From an uncultured Clostridia bacterium (lineage in GTDB: Bacteria > Bacillota > Clostridia > Oscillospirales > Oscillospiraceae): 55,354 bases of DNA. The stretch covers positions 1 through 55,354 of the forward strand of contig CAMCRV010000015.1 in NCBI GenBank assembly GCA_945877365.1, in the 5' to 3' direction. This document shows, piece after piece, positions 26,451 to 40,928 of the stretch. A program made the position numbers and the translations under genes. The first letter of the stretch is position 1. Each line of letters begins with the position of its first letter. Under the pieces are notes generated by a model. The model was not told the DNA's origin and did not search any database. It saw only the letters and a list, made by a program, of their open reading frames with translations.

Positions 26451-27239
26451 ATGATCACCATACAGAACTATGTCCGGGCGCAGAGTCTGGAAGAGGCGTG
26501 GAGCCTGAATCAAAAGAGGCAGAACCGCATCCTGGGCGGTATGCTGTGGCTGCGGCTGGGCAAGGGCAGCATCCATACTGCCATCGACCTTTGCAATCTG
26601 GGGCTGAATGGCATTGAGGAAAACGATACGGAGTTTCGCATCGGCGCCATGGTCACCCTCCGGGATCTGGAACTGCATGACGGACTGAACGCCTACACCC
26701 GGGGGGCGGTAAGAAACGCCGTGAAGGATATTGTGGGCGTGCAGTTTCGCAACATGGCCACCGTGGGCGGCAGCATCTGGGGGCGGTTTGGCTTTTCGGA
26801 TGTTCTCACCGTTTTTCTGGGGCTGGACACCTATGCAGAGCTGTATAAAGGGGGCATGGTTCCTTTGGAAACCTTTGTCTCCATGAAGAAGGACAACGAT
26901 ATTCTGGTTCGGCTGATTGTCAAAAAGGCTCCTGCCAGAATCGTTTACACCGCCATGCGCAACCAGCGTACGGATTTCCCTGTGATTGCCTGTGCCGTTT
27001 CTCAGCTGGGCGGGGAATATCGGGCAGCTATTGGTGCCCGGCCTGCCCGGGCTATGGTGATCCGGGATGAACAGGGCTTGCTCTCCGATGGCATCACCGC
27101 CGAAAGCGCAAAAGCCTTTGCGGAATATACTGCGAAAAAGGCTCCCACGGAGAACAATGTCCGGGGCAGCGCCGCCTACCGCACCCATCTGATCCGGGTT
27201 TTGACCCAGCGGTCTGTGCTGGAACTGGGAGGTATCTGA
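26451..27239 (+). CDS. Xanthine dehydrogenase family protein, FAD-binding subunit
   Basis: Medium subunit (262 aa) of a three-subunit molybdenum hydroxylase; it passes electrons from the Fe-S subunit to FAD and then to NAD+ or another acceptor. The CO-dehydrogenase/XDH flavoprotein pattern is seen: RILGGMLWLRLG near residue 25 (FAD pyrophosphate) and ATVGGSIWGR near 105. The first of three genes, with a 1-bp gap to the 2Fe-2S subunit. AAAGGAG precedes the ATG. Confidence 0.88.
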   Translation: MITIQNYVRAQSLEEAWSLNQKRQNRILGGMLWLRLGKGSIHTAIDLCNLGLNGIEENDTEFRIGAMVTLRDLELHDGLNAYTRGAVRNAVKDIVGVQFRNMATVGGSIWGRFGFSDVLTVFLGLDTYAELYKGGMVPLETFVSMKKDNDILVRLIVKKAPARIVYTAMRNQRTDFPVIACAVSQLGGEYRAAIGARPARAMVIRDEQGLLSDGITAESAKAFAEYTAKKAPTENNVRGSAAYRTHLIRVLTQRSVLELGGI

Positions 27240-27240
27240 T

Positions 27241-27696
27241 ATGGAGATCAAACTGATACTCAATGGCAGACAGGTCGTGGGCCATGTGGATGCCGACACG
27301 GTGCTGCTGGATTTTCTGCGGGAAAAGGGCTGCCTCAGCGTCAAGCGGGGCTGCGACACCTCCAACTGCGGACTGTGCACGGTTTTGATGGACGGAAAGC
27401 CCATCCTGTCCTGCTCCACGCTGGCAGTTCGTGCCGATGGGCATGAGGTTTTCACACTGGAGGGACTTCAGGGGGAAGCCGCCGACTTTATCGGCTTTAT
27501 CGCCGATCAGGGCGCGGATCAGTGCGGCTTCTGCAATCCCGGCTTTGTGATGAATACCATCGCCCTGCTCCGGGAAAATCCCGACCCCACAGACGAGGAA
27601 ATTCGGGCATTTCTGGCAGGGAATCTGTGCCGCTGCTCCGGCTATGACGGACAGCTCCGGGGTATCCGCAATTATCTGAACAGCCGCGGAAGATGA
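27241..27696 (+). CDS. Xanthine dehydrogenase family protein, 2Fe-2S subunit
   Basis: Small electron-transfer subunit (151 aa) with two 2Fe-2S clusters. The plant-type ferredoxin domain has GCDTSNCGLCTV followed by a fourth Cys in ILSC; the helical second domain has CGFCNPGF and NLCRCSGYD. All eight cluster cysteines are present. Middle gene of the B-C-A ordered operon. Confidence 0.94.
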   Translation: MEIKLILNGRQVVGHVDADTVLLDFLREKGCLSVKRGCDTSNCGLCTVLMDGKPILSCSTLAVRADGHEVFTLEGLQGEAADFIGFIADQGADQCGFCNPGFVMNTIALLRENPDPTDEEIRAFLAGNLCRCSGYDGQLRGIRNYLNSRGR

Positions 27697-27706
27697 GGAG
27701 GACACC

Positions 27707-30019
27707 ATGGAAAACAGAGAATACAAGACGGTAGGCAAGTCCTTCCGAAAGAAGGACGCCATGCAGCTTTTAACCGGCAAGCCTGTCTATGTGGATGATA
27801 TCACACCCCGAAACGCCCTGGTGGTGATGCTGCTGCGCAGCCCCCATGCCAACGCAATCGTTCAGGAAATCCGGACGGATGCGGCTAAAAAGGTTCCCGG
27901 TGTTGTGGATATCTACACCTGGCAGGATGTCCCCCAGACCCGGTTCGCCATTGCAGGCCAGACCTATCCCGAGCCATCCCCCTATGACCGGCTGATTCTT
28001 GACCGCCATGTGCGGTTTGTGGGGGATGCAGTGGCAATCATTGCCGCCGAAACGGAAAAGGCCGCCCGGAAGGCCATGAAGCTCATCAAAGTAAAATACG
28101 AGGTGCTGGAAGCGGTTCTGGATTTCCGCGCCGCCAAGGATAACCCCGTGCTGGTTCACCCGGAGGCGGACTGGTTCCCTCCCTGTGAGGTTGGCGGCGA
28201 TAACAGGAGAAATCTGGTGGCCAGCGAGGTCAGCGCCCATGGCGATGTGGATGGGGTCATGGCGGACTGCGATATCGTCATTGACCGCACCTATCACACC
28301 AAGGCCTTCCATCAGGCCATGATGGAGCCCTTCATCTGCTATACCGAGCTGGATCGGTATGGACGGCTCCATGTGGTGTCCTCCACCCAGATCGTGTTCC
28401 ACACCCGCCGGATTCTCAGCCGGGCGCTGGGCATCCCCAAAAGCCGGATTCGGGTGGAAAAACCCAGAATCGGCGGCGGCTTCGGGGCAAAGCAGACTGC
28501 CGTGTGTGATGTATACCCTGCATTTGTCACCATGAAAACCGGCAGGCCTGCCAAGATCAGCTATACCCGGGAGGAGGCTCAGATTTCCGGTTCTCCCCGG
28601 CATGAGATGGAAGTCCGGGTTCGTTTGGGCGCCAGCAGGGAGGGTAAAATCCGGGTGATGGATCTTTACACCCTGTCCAATACCGGCGCCTACGGCGAGC
28701 ATGGGCCTACCACGGTTGGCCTGTCCGGTCACAAGTCCATCCCCCTGTACACCGGCTCTCTGGAAGCCCACCGCTTTTCCTACGATGTGGTTTACACCAA
28801 TTTGCAGGCCGCAGGGGCGTACCGGGGCTACGGTGCAACCCAGGGAATTTTCGCCGTGGAATCCGCAGTCAACGAGCTGGCGGAAATGCTGGGCATGGAT
28901 CCCACTGTCATTCGTGACAGGAACATGGTCAAGGAGGGCATGGTCATGCCGGCCTACTACGGGGAGCCTGCCAATGCCTGCGCCCTGGATCGCTGCATGG
29001 AGCACTGCCGCCAGATGTTCCGCTGGGAGGAGCGGTATCCTGTCCGGGACATGGGCAACGGAAAGGTGCGCTGCGCCGGTGTTGCCATGGCCATGCAGGG
29101 CAGCTGCATTTCCAATATCGATGTAGGCTCCGCCACCGTCAAACTCAGCGAGGACGGCACCTATAACCTGCTGATTGGTGCCGCGGACATGGGCACCGGC
29201 TGCGATACCATTCTGGCGCAGATGGTTGCCGAGTGCATGGACTGCCGCCTTGCGGATGTTGCCGTGTTCGGCGCGGATACCGACGCCTCTCCCTATGATT
29301 CCGGCTCCTATGCCTCCTCCACCACCTACATCACCGGCAAGGCTGTGGAAAAGGCCTGCACCCAGCTGAAAGACCAGATCTGCGCCATTGCAGCCCAGAT
29401 GATGGGATGTGAGAAAGAAGAAGTGGTCTTTGAGAGCACCCGGGTTCGCCGGATGGATACAGATCAGGCCGTGTCTCTGGCAGACATCGCCTACAAGGCT
29501 CAGGTGGGAAACACCCAGCCCGCCGAGGCCACAGCCACCCACTCCTCCCCCATCTCGCCTCCGCCCTACATGGTGGGCATGGTGGAGATTGAGCTGGACA
29601 AGCTGACGGGTCTGGTGACCATTCTGGATTACATGGCCGTGGTGGACTGCGGCATTCCCATCAACCCAGCTCTTGCCAGAATTCAGGCCGAGGGCGGCAT
29701 TGTCCAGGGCATCGGCCACACCCTGATGGAGAATGTGACCTATGACCGCAACGGCCGTCCCATCGAATCCTCCTTTATGCAGTATAAAATTCCCACCCGT
29801 CTGGATATGGGACACCTGAGGGTGGAGTTTGAACACAGCAATGAGCCCACCGGCCCCTTCGGCGCCAAGTCCATCGGCGAAATCGTCATCAACACACCTG
29901 CCCCTGCCATCGCCCACGCCATCTATCGAGCCACCGGTGTCTGGCATCGGGAGCTGCCCATCACTCCGGAAAAGGTGGCAATGTCCCTGGTGGAAAAGCA
30001 GCATGAAATTCAGGCGTGA
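27707..30019 (+). CDS. Xanthine dehydrogenase family protein, molybdopterin-binding catalytic subunit
   Basis: Large subunit, 770 aa, where the molybdenum cofactor hydroxylates the substrate (purines, nicotinate or another heterocycle or aldehyde). Seen: the Moco-binding loop IGGGFGAKQ near residue 256, AYRGYGATQG near 370, the substrate-channel region HQAMMEPF near 205, and the GAKSIGE motif near 720 whose Glu is the conserved catalytic base. Length is normal. GAGGAGG lies a few bases before the ATG. The neighbouring molybdate-uptake and MobA-like genes probably supply its cofactor. Substrate cannot be assigned from sequence. Confidence 0.9.
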   Translation: MENREYKTVGKSFRKKDAMQLLTGKPVYVDDITPRNALVVMLLRSPHANAIVQEIRTDAAKKVPGVVDIYTWQDVPQTRFAIAGQTYPEPSPYDRLILDRHVRFVGDAVAIIAAETEKAARKAMKLIKVKYEVLEAVLDFRAAKDNPVLVHPEADWFPPCEVGGDNRRNLVASEVSAHGDVDGVMADCDIVIDRTYHTKAFHQAMMEPFICYTELDRYGRLHVVSSTQIVFHTRRILSRALGIPKSRIRVEKPRIGGGFGAKQTAVCDVYPAFVTMKTGRPAKISYTREEAQISGSPRHEMEVRVRLGASREGKIRVMDLYTLSNTGAYGEHGPTTVGLSGHKSIPLYTGSLEAHRFSYDVVYTNLQAAGAYRGYGATQGIFAVESAVNELAEMLGMDPTVIRDRNMVKEGMVMPAYYGEPANACALDRCMEHCRQMFRWEERYPVRDMGNGKVRCAGVAMAMQGSCISNIDVGSATVKLSEDGTYNLLIGAADMGTGCDTILAQMVAECMDCRLADVAVFGADTDASPYDSGSYASSTTYITGKAVEKACTQLKDQICAIAAQMMGCEKEEVVFESTRVRRMDTDQAVSLADIAYKAQVGNTQPAEATATHSSPISPPPYMVGMVEIELDKLTGLVTILDYMAVVDCGIPINPALARIQAEGGIVQGIGHTLMENVTYDRNGRPIESSFMQYKIPTRLDMGHLRVEFEHSNEPTGPFGAKSIGEIVINTPAPAIAHAIYRATGVWHRELPITPEKVAMSLVEKQHEIQA

Positions 30020-30504
30020 CCGCGCCCACCGGAGCAAACAGAACAGTGAGCCGCCAATGCGCAGGCAGCAAATATTTTAGAAATGTGCATATCAGCTTGC
30101 GTCAACAAAGCGATAAATTGAAATTTGGCGGCGAGTCGCCGCTGACAATGCGTTACGGACTGCGGGTAGACAATCCACATCCTTTGGGCCCCTCGACCGG
30201 AACTGCGTAGGTTATATAGAATAGACCACCACCGCAAAAACGAACCGGGCGTGCCCAAAGGATGGAAAGATCACCACCCGGGCGAAGGCTCGCATTGCCC
30301 GTGGGGGCATCCCCACAAATAACAATTTCTCAACCGGCTGCACAAACCCGATAAGCACATTTAGGGCAACACCGCACAATGGGATCTGCGGGCTTCGGCG
30401 GATCTTTTGTCCCATTTGCCTTAGAAAAAAGCGTAAATCTATCGACATACAGCCCCCTTCCATGATATAATGCGGAATATGATTCATGGAAGGGGGCGTT
30501 TTAT
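30020..30504. other. 485-bp intergenic region with a palindrome-bounded repeat module
   Basis: Holds no credible gene. The boundary palindromes AAATTGAAATTT (30115-30126) and AAATAACAATTT (30317-30328) enclose a ~190-bp module; its right end (30243-30328) is the reverse complement of 51285-51363. Outside both palindromes lie inverted tail sequences with GATATGCACATTT-like ends. A weak terminator hairpin with a short T tract lies at about 30381-30405, and the promoter of the next gene is at its end. Confidence 0.65.
30442..30497 (+). promoter_or_regulatory. Promoter of the GTPase-NYN gene, embraced by a 14-bp inverted repeat
   Basis: TCGACA (30442-30447), 18-bp spacer, TATAAT (30466-30471). 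A perfect inverted repeat GCCCCCTTCCATGA (30452-30465) and TCATGGAAGGGGGC (30484-30497) brackets the -10 box; its right arm also contains the ribosome-binding site GGAAGGGGG, 8 bases before the ATG at 30505. It may be an operator; in any longer transcript it would hide the ribosome site. Confidence 0.65.
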
Positions 30505-33042
30505 ATGCCTGACCAAGTAAATAAGACGCCATGTTGTTTGGGCTTGCTTGCCCATGTGGATGCCGGAAAGACAACGCTGTCGGAGGCGCTGCTGTTCCGG
30601 AGCGGCGCCCGGCGGACGCTGGGTCGGGTGGATCACCGGGATGCCTTTCTGGACACCCATGCGCTGGAACGCAGCCGGGGCATCACCATCTTCTCCAAGC
30701 AGGCCATTTTTGAGACGGACCACCGGCAGATTACCATGGTGGACACCCCCGGCCATGTGGACTTCTCCGCAGAGACAGAGCGGATTCTGCCTGTTCTGAA
30801 CTGCGCTGTTCTGGTGATCAGCGGCACCGACGGCATTCAGGCACACACCCTGACCCTCTGGCGGCTGCTGGAACGGTATCAGGTGCCGGTTATCATGTTT
30901 ATCAACAAAATGGATCTGCCGGGAATCCCCCGGGAAACCCTAATGCAGCAGCTGCAAAGCCAGCTCAGCCCCGGGTGCATCGACTTCGGGCAGGAGGCGG
31001 AGCAGATCGCGGAAAGCGCCGCCATGTGTGACGAAGCCCTGCTGGAAGCCTATCTGGAAACCGGCAGCGTCACGGAGGGGAATCTGCGCTCCCTGATTGC
31101 TCACCGCAAACTGTTCCCCTGCTGCTTTGGCTCTGCCCTGAAGCTGCAGGGCGTGGAGGAGCTGCTGGAACTGCTGGATCGGTTTGCCCCCGACCCCGAA
31201 TACCCGGCAGAATTCTCCGCCCGGGTGTTCAAAATCTCCCGGGATCCTCAGGGCAACCGGCTGACCTGGGTCAAGCTGCTGGGGGGCAGCCTGAAGGTGC
31301 GCTCCGTTCTGCGTTATGTAAACCGGTCAGGAGAGACTTTGGAGGAAAAGGCGGTGCAGCTGCGGCAGTATTCCGGGGAAAAGTTTAACGCCCCGGAGGA
31401 AATCTTTGCCGGACAGATTGCCGCAATTACCGGCCTGACCGCCACATGGTCGGGGCAGGGTCTGGGCTGCGCCCAGAGCAGTCTGCCTCCCCTGCTGGAA
31501 CCGGTGATGACCTACCGGGTGAATCTGCCCAAAGGGGTTGCCCCGGCCACAGCCTATCCCAGACTGCGGCAGCTGGAGGAGGAAGATCCCCAGCTCCATC
31601 TGGTGCAGGAGGGCGGTCAGCTCCATGTGCAGATCATGGGCAAGGTGCAGCTGGAAATCTTCCGCAGTTTGGTAGCCCAGCGTTTTGGCATGGACATCAC
31701 CCTGGATGACCAGCGGATTTTCTACAAGGAAACCATCGCCAACACCGTGGAGGGCGTGGGGCACTATGAGCCCCTGCGGCACTACGCCGAAGCCCATATT
31801 CTGCTGGAGCCCCTGAGTCGGGGCAGCGGTCTGGTGCTGGACACGGTATGCCCCACGGATGTGCTGGACGGGCAGTATCAGAAGCTGATTCTCACCCATC
31901 TGGGGGAGAAGGTGCATAAGGGTGTTCTCACCGGCTCTCCCATCACCGACATGAAGCTGACCCTGCTGGTGGGCAAGGCGCATCTGAAGCACACCGAGGG
32001 CGGCGATTTCCGTCAGGCCACCTACCGGGCGGTGCGGCAGGGCCTGATGCAGGCCCGGAGTGTTCTGCTGGAACCGTGGTACGACTTCACCCTCACCATG
32101 CCCACAGAGCAAATCGGGCGCGCCATCACCGATTTCAAGGCCATGGGCGGCCAGATGGATGCCCCGGAAGCCCAGGGAGGCATCTCCACCCTGACCGGGC
32201 AGGTGCCTGCCGCCGAAGTGCGGGACTATGCCGAAACCCTGGCGGCCTATACCCAAGGCCGGGGACGGCTTCAGCTGACCCTCCACGGCTATTTTCCCTG
32301 CCACAACACGGAGGAGGTGGTGGCACAGCTGGGCTATGACCCGGAGGCCGACACGGAAAACACCCCGGACAGCGTGTTCTGCGCCCACGGCGCCGGATTC
32401 CTTGTGAAGTGGAATCAGGTCAGGGACTATATGCATCTGGAAAGCGGCCTGCGGCAGGAAAAGGCTCCCCAGCTGATTCCCCGGAATGTGTGGGGGGAGG
32501 ATCGGGAGCTGGAAAAAATCATGGAACGGGAGTTCGGCAACCGGCAGCGGCCTCTGTACCGCGCCAGGGCGGAGGAAATCCCTGCCACGCAAACCCTCTC
32601 CATCCGCCCGCCCCGGGAAACCTACATCATCGTGGACGGCTACAACATCATCTTTGCATGGGACGCTCTGGCGGAGACCGCCCGGAGTGATCTGGATGCC
32701 GCCCGGCGGCAGCTTCTGGATATCCTCAGCAGCTATGCAGGCTTCACCAAATGCCGCATGGTGGTGGTGTTTGACGGCTACAAGCGCAAGGGCAATCCCG
32801 GGGAAAAGTCGGTGCTTCACAACCTTCAGGTGGTCTACACCCGGGAGGGGGAAACCGCCGACCAGTATATCGAGTCGTTGGCCAGTGAAATCGGCAGCAA
32901 CTACTGCGTCAAGGTGGCCAGCAACGACTCGCTGATTCAGCTTTCTGCCTTCCGCAGCGGCACCCTTCGCCTCTCCGCCGGGGAGCTGGAACAGATGGTT
33001 CGGGAGGCATCCCGGGAAATGGAAGCATTTTTCGGCAAATAG
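30505..33042 (+). CDS. TetM/EF-G-like ribosomal GTPase fused to a C-terminal NYN (Rae1/YacP-like) nuclease domain
   Basis: 845-aa fusion. Residues 1 to about 640 follow the ribosomal-protection/EF-G layout: G1 AHVDAGKTT (16-24), G2 Thr61 in SRGITI, G3 DTPGH (80-84, with the catalytic His), G4 NKMD (134-137), then domains II to V. Residues ~704-840 match the NYN/PIN-like fold of YacP (Rae1), a ribosome-associated endoribonuclease: YIIVDGYNII (Asp710), VVVFDGYK (Asp757), ETADQYIE (Glu783/Asp786) and SNDSL (Asp808), all plausible metal ligands. TetM-type proteins are about 640 aa and lack this tail. A likely role is entry into the A site with GTP and cleavage of mRNA there; tetracycline protection is possible but untested. 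Stand-alone gene with its own promoter. Confidence 0.87.
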   Translation: MPDQVNKTPCCLGLLAHVDAGKTTLSEALLFRSGARRTLGRVDHRDAFLDTHALERSRGITIFSKQAIFETDHRQITMVDTPGHVDFSAETERILPVLNCAVLVISGTDGIQAHTLTLWRLLERYQVPVIMFINKMDLPGIPRETLMQQLQSQLSPGCIDFGQEAEQIAESAAMCDEALLEAYLETGSVTEGNLRSLIAHRKLFPCCFGSALKLQGVEELLELLDRFAPDPEYPAEFSARVFKISRDPQGNRLTWVKLLGGSLKVRSVLRYVNRSGETLEEKAVQLRQYSGEKFNAPEEIFAGQIAAITGLTATWSGQGLGCAQSSLPPLLEPVMTYRVNLPKGVAPATAYPRLRQLEEEDPQLHLVQEGGQLHVQIMGKVQLEIFRSLVAQRFGMDITLDDQRIFYKETIANTVEGVGHYEPLRHYAEAHILLEPLSRGSGLVLDTVCPTDVLDGQYQKLILTHLGEKVHKGVLTGSPITDMKLTLLVGKAHLKHTEGGDFRQATYRAVRQGLMQARSVLLEPWYDFTLTMPTEQIGRAITDFKAMGGQMDAPEAQGGISTLTGQVPAAEVRDYAETLAAYTQGRGRLQLTLHGYFPCHNTEEVVAQLGYDPEADTENTPDSVFCAHGAGFLVKWNQVRDYMHLESGLRQEKAPQLIPRNVWGEDRELEKIMEREFGNRQRPLYRARAEEIPATQTLSIRPPRETYIIVDGYNIIFAWDALAETARSDLDAARRQLLDILSSYAGFTKCRMVVVFDGYKRKGNPGEKSVLHNLQVVYTREGETADQYIESLASEIGSNYCVKVASNDSLIQLSAFRSGTLRLSAGELEQMVREASREMEAFFGK

Positions 33043-34958: not shown

Positions 34959-35035
34959 GGAGGCTTAGCTCAGCTGGTTAGAGCGCATGCTTCACACGCA
35001 TGAGGTCACAGGTTCGAGTCCCGTAGTCTCCACCA
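34959..35035 (+). tRNA. tRNA-Val (anticodon CAC)
   Basis: 77-nt cloverleaf with encoded CCA. The acceptor stem GGAGGCT/AGTCTCC has one G-U pair, the D stem is GCTC/GAGC, the anticodon stem CATGC/GCATG with loop TTCACAC gives CAC, reading GUG, and the T loop is TTCGAGT. Discriminator base A. Confidence 0.96.
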
Positions 35036-40854: not shown

Positions 40855-40928
40855 AGAGGATTAGTGTAACGGTAGCACACCGGACTCTGACTCCGTTCGC
40901 GGGGGTTCGAATCCCTCATCCTCTGCCA
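40855..40928 (+). tRNA. tRNA-Gln (anticodon CTG)
   Basis: 74-nt cloverleaf with encoded CCA. Acceptor AGAGGAT/ATCCTCT, D stem GTGT/GCAC, anticodon loop CTCTGAC (CTG, reading CAG), T loop TTCGAAT, discriminator G. The outermost anticodon-stem pair is a C-U mismatch. Confidence 0.94.

Follow-up and report, generated by a model that had tools for sequence, protein, structure and literature searches.

Architecture of the fusion gene

We analysed a stretch of 55,354 nucleotides from an uncultured Clostridia bacterium (contig CAMCRV010000015.1; hereafter the window), which harbors a gene for a translational GTPase of the elongation factor G (EF-G) kind fused to a nuclease domain of the Rae1/YacP type. 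An earlier note on this DNA had placed both parts in one frame, and this was confirmed by a single open reading frame (ORF) with matches to GTP_EFTU, EFG_IV, EFG_C, and NYN_YacP. The gene is organized as follows:

30505..33042, + strand: fusion gene with ATG start, 845 amino acids (ORF list and translation)
30538..31191, + strand: GTPase (G) domain, residues 12-229, with motifs AHVDAGKTT, RGIT, DTPGH, and NKMD (Pfam GTP_EFTU, E 1.1e-48)
31210..31704, + strand: EF-G domains II and III, residues 236-400 (Pfam below cut-offs; whole-length fold match)
31717..32055, + strand: domain IV, residues 405-517, with the family-specific tip HLKHTEGGDF at 493-502 (EFG_IV, E 7.2e-16)
32062..32307, + strand: domain V, residues 520-601 (Pfam EFG_C, E 4.7e-18)
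32308..32439, + strand: C-terminal mini-domain, residues 602-645, motif ENTPDSVFCAHGAGF..W (alignment; folded in the predicted model)
32458..32604, + strand: linker, about residues 652-700, predicted to be largely disordered (predicted local distance difference test, pLDDT, <50 at 652-665 and 677-700)
32626..33024, + strand: NYN_YacP (Rae1-type) nuclease domain, residues 708-840, with Asp711, 757, 786, and 808 (Pfam)

The five-domain fold together with the GTPase motifs placed the protein in the EF-G-fold translational GTPase superfamily. Domains II and III were detectable by Pfam (EF-G_D2, 24.3 bits; EFG_III, 20.9 bits), both under the cut-off of 27, while residues D19, K22, T61, D80, H84, K135, and D137 of the GTPase were invariant in 56 sequences and domain IV displayed the highest mean conservation among the parts compared. 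A sequence search of the entire protein against PDB resulted in EF-G as the best match, followed by TetM/TetO, and Foldseek with the predicted model revealed an overall EF-G fold (best E 1.2e-54); the alignment of the model with TetM (3j9y_w) reached model residue 641, i.e., into the mini-domain. The NYN_YacP match scored 142.5 bits (E 1.6e-41; cut-off 24.6), identifying a Rae1/YacP domain, and the sole PDB sequence matches of this part were Rae1/YacP (5mq8/5mq9, E 4e-20). No NYN match was found among the matches listed for the structure search with the full model, all of them being filled by EF-G-like proteins; the assignment of the NYN fold is based on the sequence matches and the predicted model. 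In and next to the mini-domain, Cys599, Cys626, His628, and His644 (residues 599-645, window 32299-32439) were invariant or nearly so in 56 fusions and may form a candidate metal site.

Position of the GTPase among Tet proteins and EF-G

Trees of the GTPase part were calculated with 53 rows, with 42 rows (the careful tree, with two support values), and with 39 rows (the quick tree), containing 29, 18, and 14 fused GTPases, respectively, and only five or six rows of tetracycline ribosomal protection (Tet) proteins, TetB(P) being included in the 39-row tree. In this order of trees, the fusions and their relatives without the nuclease (NYN-less proteins) grouped in one clade (support 100, 100/100, and 100), the Tet rows (TetM, TetO, TetW, OtrA-like, L175, plus TetB(P)) in a separate one (92, 99/94, and 96), and EF-G/EF-G2 in a third (support 100). 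The Tet clade excluded all fusion-family rows (29 in the careful and 25 in the quick tree), and a constraint joining the fusion family with TetM/O/W, with both OtrA and L175 left outside, was rejected (approximately unbiased (AU) test, p 0.0004). By sequence, Tet proteins, the fusion family, and EF-G are separate groups; a sister relation of the fusion family to Tet is not established by these trees, since the EF-G outgroup forces it and the closest pair depends on the root.

With 384.4 bits against the Tet equivalog cut-off of 775 (NF012153) and 273.7 bits against the EF-G cut-off of 659.4 (TIGR00484), the window protein fell short of both; of the two, Tet is the nearer by score, and tet_protect took the top rank in NCBIfam. 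Differences were also detected at the tip of domain IV, which typically reads H-x-K-H-T-x-G-G-D-F in the fusion family (L176, L199, and L200 deviate), (S/A)-P-x-S-T-x-x-D-F in five named Tet/Otr proteins (SP.STPADF in TetB(P)), and H-x-V-D-S in EF-G. The tip contains what we take to be the position of TetM P509, its number and role being presumed here. Proline occupied it in 5/5 references (TetM, TetO, TetW, TetB(P), and OtrA-like) and was absent in 25/25 fusion-family rows; the window protein has lysine. Protein L175 branches with the Tet proteins, yet it reached only 600.3 of 775 bits and carries methionine at the P509 position (tip HVMHSNPGDF), making it an intermediate with a tip closer to the fusion family than to TetM. 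Since L175 misses both tests, neither the Tet score nor the tip proline is proof by itself. The mini-domain at 602-645 displayed a motif like D-x-E-N-T-x-x-S-V-F-C-x-H-G-x-G-F, which was not found in the Tet and EF-G rows. Altogether, the protein shares with EF-G the overall fold and the histidine at the tip position of HxVDS, but differs in its separate clade and its score, while Tet(M), Tet(O), TetB(P), and Otr(A) differ from it in clade, domain-IV tip, C-terminal mini-domain, score, and the added NYN domain.

The NYN-less sister GTPases (about 650-670 amino acids), identified in Paenibacillus cellulosilyticus and in genomes of families f7, f11, f155, f167, and f171, share clade, tip, and mini-domain with the fusions but possess neither linker nor NYN domain. 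Their C-termini, MHC in most cases, lie no more than a few residues from the mini-domain, which indicates that NYN was attached to an already complete factor. Inside the family, fused and NYN-less rows separate (support 95 and 95; 99/96 and 99/97; 97 and 99) with the exception of the NYN-less protein L200 of Ligilactobacillus salivarius (NZ_CP114502), which sits within the fused clade, a tree with it outside not being rejected (AU p 0.158). Perhaps this gene was transferred from Clostridia with loss of the NYN domain and is a candidate false resistance call; NCBI annotates it as a Tet protein. Another NYN-less GTPase without annotation was found downstream of gpsB in Limosilactobacillus fermentum (CP033372, L163), in ORFs of 516 and 133 amino acids.

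The nuclease domain, stand-alone Rae1, and genomic context

The earlier note had named four acidic residues as expected for a metal-dependent nuclease, beginning with Asp710. All four aspartates are present, but the first is Asp711, position 710 being valine. Asp711, 757, 786, and 808 correspond to D7, D53, D81, and D104 of Rae1, for which we assume a catalytic role, and were conserved without exception (100%) in the 112 fused and 56 stand-alone sequences compared. The domain thus resembles Rae1/YacP of Bacillus subtilis (5mq8, 5mq9) in its NYN_YacP match, the four equivalent aspartates, and the conserved columns of the core. Rae1, however, is a free protein of 170 amino acids, while here the nuclease is the C-terminal domain of an 845-amino-acid GTPase at another locus; in B. 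subtilis, rae1 adjoins yacO/rlmB according to a passage of PMC6613710.

A major difference was detected at the C-terminal tail. In a model built on the stand-alone proteins, 56/56 of these reached position 166 or more, while only 21/112 fusions reached position 160, so that the tail is lost or unrecognisable in 91/112 fusions with the catalytic core kept. The match of the window protein stops at model position 137 of 170, and the R165/R166 region of Rae1 is missing. Arginine or lysine was found in 52/56 stand-alone proteins at position 165 and in 53/56 at 166; in the fusions, position 166 is a gap in 87/112 and lysine in 11/112. R166P is listed among the loss-of-function rae1 alleles of B. subtilis (PMC6613710, Table 1). 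These observations fit a tail that served ribosome binding and may have become dispensable once a ribosome-binding GTPase was attached.

Gene kinds were counted across 148 genomes of the class. NYN_YacP was present in 98 of them, fused only in 53 and stand-alone only in 45, and no genome had both (Fisher p 1.6e-11 for the exclusion, kinship not being corrected for). At the family level, 17 of 39 families were fused only, 19 stand-alone only, and three mixed, again without a genome carrying both. The 53 include G443 (the two parts split between adjacent ORFs of 588 and 351 amino acids) and the cut or broken cases G460, G471, and G524; L142, a short ORF at a contig end, was counted as fused but excluded from the set of 112 fusions used for conservation. 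G517 (605-amino-acid frame near a contig start) and G531 (35% identity) were counted neither as fused nor as NYN-less, and a second NYN match under the cut-off in G522 was not counted. In a wider draw, 249/391 genomes had an NYN_YacP match and five had two, namely G713 with a fusion and a stand-alone gene, G519 (61% complete) with two fusions, and three with a second match under the cut-off; two phylum genomes (G223 and G328) had two matches each. In the genome of the window (97.3% complete), the fusion is the sole NYN_YacP match.

Regarding gene order, reading a sigma-factor-like gene as sigH, rlmB-rae1-sigH is retained in G507 (no fusion) and G713 (fusion and rae1), while in the fusion genomes G417 and G539 rlmB lies directly beside the sigH-like gene and rae1 is gone. 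The flanks of the fusion genomes G440 and G069 show neither arrangement, in the stand-alone genome G447 the nuclease gene adjoins the sigH-like gene and rlmB is found about 13 kb away, and the genome of the window revealed no rlmB above the cut-off.

Among all rows collected, L001, L113, and L177 were excluded as duplicate or cut and L077_noNYN as an antisense ORF. A tree of the NYN domain was based on 104 rows (48 of 113 fused domains and 56 stand-alone proteins). The fused/stand-alone split takes two changes on this tree, with 55/56 stand-alone rows behind one branch (support 98). The exceptional row is a free fused-type NYN protein of 190 amino acids in G626 (L130/L191), whose NYN-less GTPase (L204) is located on another contig, possibly a natural separation of the two halves. 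The simplest reading of the tree is one fusion event with rare later separation. Since fused and stand-alone forms are split nearly cleanly and hardly ever share a genome, the fusion appears to stand in for rae1; the apparent replacement of Rae1 by a GTPase-tethered form in many Clostridia is the new and testable part of our analysis.

As to its spread, for which the earlier note had suggested a profile search, a scan of genome contigs yielded at least 576 relatives, not all of them demonstrated fusions. The best 80 loci, examined in detail, were covered to near full length and were all fusions (831-916 amino acids; L061 is truncated at its contig start), with record titles including Oscillospiraceae, Butyricicoccus, Faecalibacterium, Agathobaculum, Ruminococcus, Lachnospiraceae, and others. 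A GTPase motif followed by an NYN motif in one ORF at 80/80 loci ruled out an assembly chimera. NCBI labels one such protein 'translation factor GTPase family protein'. An acquired resistance gene was considered and rejected, as only 3/1369 matching plasmid records covered at least 80% of the query; the one of these among the matches listed is a fusion on a 518-kb Monoglobus replicon, the following plasmid match being from L. fermentum (74% coverage). A phage-borne gene was likewise rejected: a near-relative search revealed no relative in viral_contigs, and the two of 111 matching 'phages' records with at least 80% coverage are both UNVERIFIED metagenome scaffolds without annotation. The gene is best explained as a chromosomal translation factor of the housekeeping type. 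With respect to other factors of this fold, EFG_IV matches in the assembly of the window (G000:C31; L112, L178) were confined to an EF-G2-like protein (LGHSGSGKT) and the fusion, the missing canonical EF-G probably reflecting an assembly gap.

In the window, the gene is flanked by molybdenum-hydroxylase genes and a PsiE-like gene, i.e., it does not lie beside rlmB. Directly upstream are three molybdenum hydroxylase genes (26451-30019; FAD, 2Fe-2S, and molybdopterin subunits), and two tRNA genes (Rfam) were found at 34959-35032 and 40855-40925. No conserved neighbour was identified among the 25 largest clusters of ORFs of at least 110 amino acids at the 80 loci, mobile and resistance genes not being searched for as such. 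The largest clusters are, by our reading, shadow frames of the fusion gene; probably genuine ones, as read from their sequences, were a membrane acyltransferase-like protein (10 loci) and a PsiE-like protein (5). Upstream of the start codon, two features were noted:

30442..30471, + strand: sigma-70-like promoter TCGACA - 18 nt - TATAAT, 11/12 matches, TG before the -10 box (consensus match only)
30452..30497, + strand: perfect 14-nt inverted repeat with arms 30452-30465 and 30484-30497 (sequence)

The repeat brackets the -10 box, with its 5' arm inside the promoter spacer and its 3' arm over the Shine-Dalgarno (SD) stretch, and a z of -4.91 was obtained for 30440-30540. Related repeats were seen by eye upstream of L002 and L008. 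In a set of 79 fusion genes including guessed starts and near-copies, 16, with about four expected, displayed unusually strong pairing between an upstream arm and the SD (p <=0.05 compared with shuffles). The ribosome site would be masked in read-through transcripts but would stay open in the gene's own transcript.

Proposed function and alternatives

Regarding its function, we favor a chromosomal, GTPase-tethered Rae1 that would enter slow or stalled ribosomes and cut the mRNA in the A site, a reading to which, as a whole, we give a probability of roughly 0.55. According to passages of PMC6613710, PMC10100781, and PMC12320835, Rae1 acts as an endonuclease in the A site and may have greater access to it when ribosomes stall; the bacterial nucleases that make the A site accessible to trans-translation are only partly known (PMC12320835). 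Known substrates of Rae1 include S1025, named in PMC11780869, and the bmrCD leader, from the title of a reference in PMC12320835. In the proposed sequence of events, the protein in its GTP form would dock at the factor-binding site when a ribosome is slow or stalled, and domain IV would probe or clear the A site. Following either GTP hydrolysis or a domain shift, the tethered NYN domain would cut the exposed A-site codon as Rae1 does, and the truncated message would be passed on to trans-translation and decay. Targeting to the ribosome, for which Rae1 may depend on its C-terminal tail, would here be taken over by the GTPase, and GTP hydrolysis would be coupled to cutting. A-site entry and mRNA cutting had already been proposed in the earlier note and stand as an inference, since the fusion behaves across genomes like a substitute for stand-alone rae1. 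A more far-reaching version, in which the GTPase selects and times its own A-site nuclease and thereby provides a main stalled-ribosome route to trans-translation in much of the Clostridia in place of free Rae1, is offered only tentatively, and we would sooner expect it to be wrong than right.

Several observations weigh against this function or its wider version. NYN_YacP was not found in 50/148 class genomes, and the exclusion of fused and stand-alone forms is clustered phylogenetically, so that the Fisher p is too strong. The rlmB-sigH gap was seen in only two of five fusion genomes with rlmB over the cut-off, tail loss amounts to about three changes on the tree, and the NYN tree is based on few columns with one kind of support and does not distinguish gain from loss. 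The full model has a predicted template modelling score (pTM) of 0.65, so that the placement of the NYN domain is not predicted, and the order of events is assumed, as domain IV and the NYN domain cannot fill the A site simultaneously. Furthermore, co-occurrence of NYN-less GTPases with stand-alone Rae1 was looked for and rejected, since it was no better (3/7 genomes) than in non-fused genomes in general (45/95). As the NYN-less GTPases do not track Rae1, the GTPase appears to have work that needs no Rae1, and the four of seven genomes with an NYN-less GTPase in which no Rae1 was found speak against tight coupling.

The occurrence of NYN-less proteins, also where no Rae1 was found, suits an alternative that we regard as less probable but worth keeping in mind, namely two uncoupled activities, with the GTPase doing its own job and the NYN domain being a passenger Rae1 kept near the ribosome by fusion alone. 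The long linker predicted to be disordered, the free fused-type NYN and NYN-less GTPase on separate contigs of G626, and the L. salivarius protein inside the fused clade, with the AU result on its placement noted above, can all be read in its favor. On the other hand, a large part of the class has retained the fusion, and loss of the Rae1 tail is confined to fused forms.

A Tet protein with an added nuclease, amounting to a novel resistance mechanism as suggested in one passage of PMC4342817, appears unlikely to us. The label 'ribosomal-protection-type' given in the earlier note did not hold, as the window protein reaches only about half of the Tet equivalog cut-off, lies outside the Tet clade, and has no proline at the P509 position, like all 25 fusion-family rows, even though the score against Tet exceeds that against EF-G (384 vs 274 bits) with tet_protect first, NCBI names an NYN-less member a Tet protein, and L175 fails cut-off and tip proline from within the Tet clade. 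The neighbour clusters at the 80 loci, with mobile genes not searched as such, revealed no conserved partner that would speak for resistance. In addition, Faecalibacterium prausnitzii, of which the record of strain ATCC 27768 (L078) carries the fusion, is mostly susceptible according to Table 2 of PMC8876097, with a MIC50 (minimum inhibitory concentration for half of the strains) of 0.25 µg/ml, 14.8% tetracycline-resistant strains, and 18/27 strains falling into the lowest MIC bin that was populated at all (about 0.25 µg/ml), the gene content of these strains being unchecked. Passages of PMC5492426 describe tetracycline results that vary among F. prausnitzii isolates, and in B. toyonensis an intrinsic tetM confers resistance (part of PMC5209696). 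Overall, a tetracycline role is not supported by score, clade, and tip, and since the gene seems to substitute for a separate rae1 in many Clostridia, it more likely encodes a ribosome quality-control factor than tetracycline resistance.

Slightly less probable still is a ribosome-assembly factor whose NYN domain matures rRNA or tRNA; this would be in line with an earlier suggestion on NYN domains, to which PMC4342817 refers, and with ribosome binding by EF-G-like GTPases, but the closest characterised relative, Rae1, acts on mRNA in a translation-dependent manner (passages of PMC10100781 and PMC6613710). A toxin or anti-phage effector halting translation via mRNA cuts on ribosomes, for which RelE-kind toxins offer a precedent as ribosome-dependent mRNA cutters (part of PMC12320835), can be set aside as very improbable, given a widely kept chromosomal gene without a conserved neighbour among the largest clusters (80 loci; ORFs <110 amino acids excluded) and without a relative in viral_contigs by the near-relative search.

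The earlier note had left open how far the fusion had been studied. It was in fact noted in 2015, when Atkinson (PMC4342817) described, in one part of the text, Tet proteins of ten clostridial species that had acquired a YacP-like NYN RNase domain. These proteins (Clostridiales) have the same architecture and, compared by description only, very probably belong to the same family as the window protein. A later study of the fusion was not found in the open-licence literature, outside of which key Rae1 papers lie that may mention it. While the architecture is already known, new here by sequence comparison are the clade of its own that the GTPase forms outside Tet, with its own tip and mini-domain and also occurring without NYN, the replacement of rae1, and the loss of the tail with the core kept.

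If the favored GTPase-tethered Rae1 is true, Clostridia including those with Faecalibacterium and Agathobaculum records would gain a regulated breakage of messages on stalled ribosomes, and one could study whether the timing of an RNA cut can be set by a translational GTPase. The Tet label first given to this architecture would then need correction, and surveys of gut metagenomes would have to take care not to score genes of this kind as tetracycline resistance.

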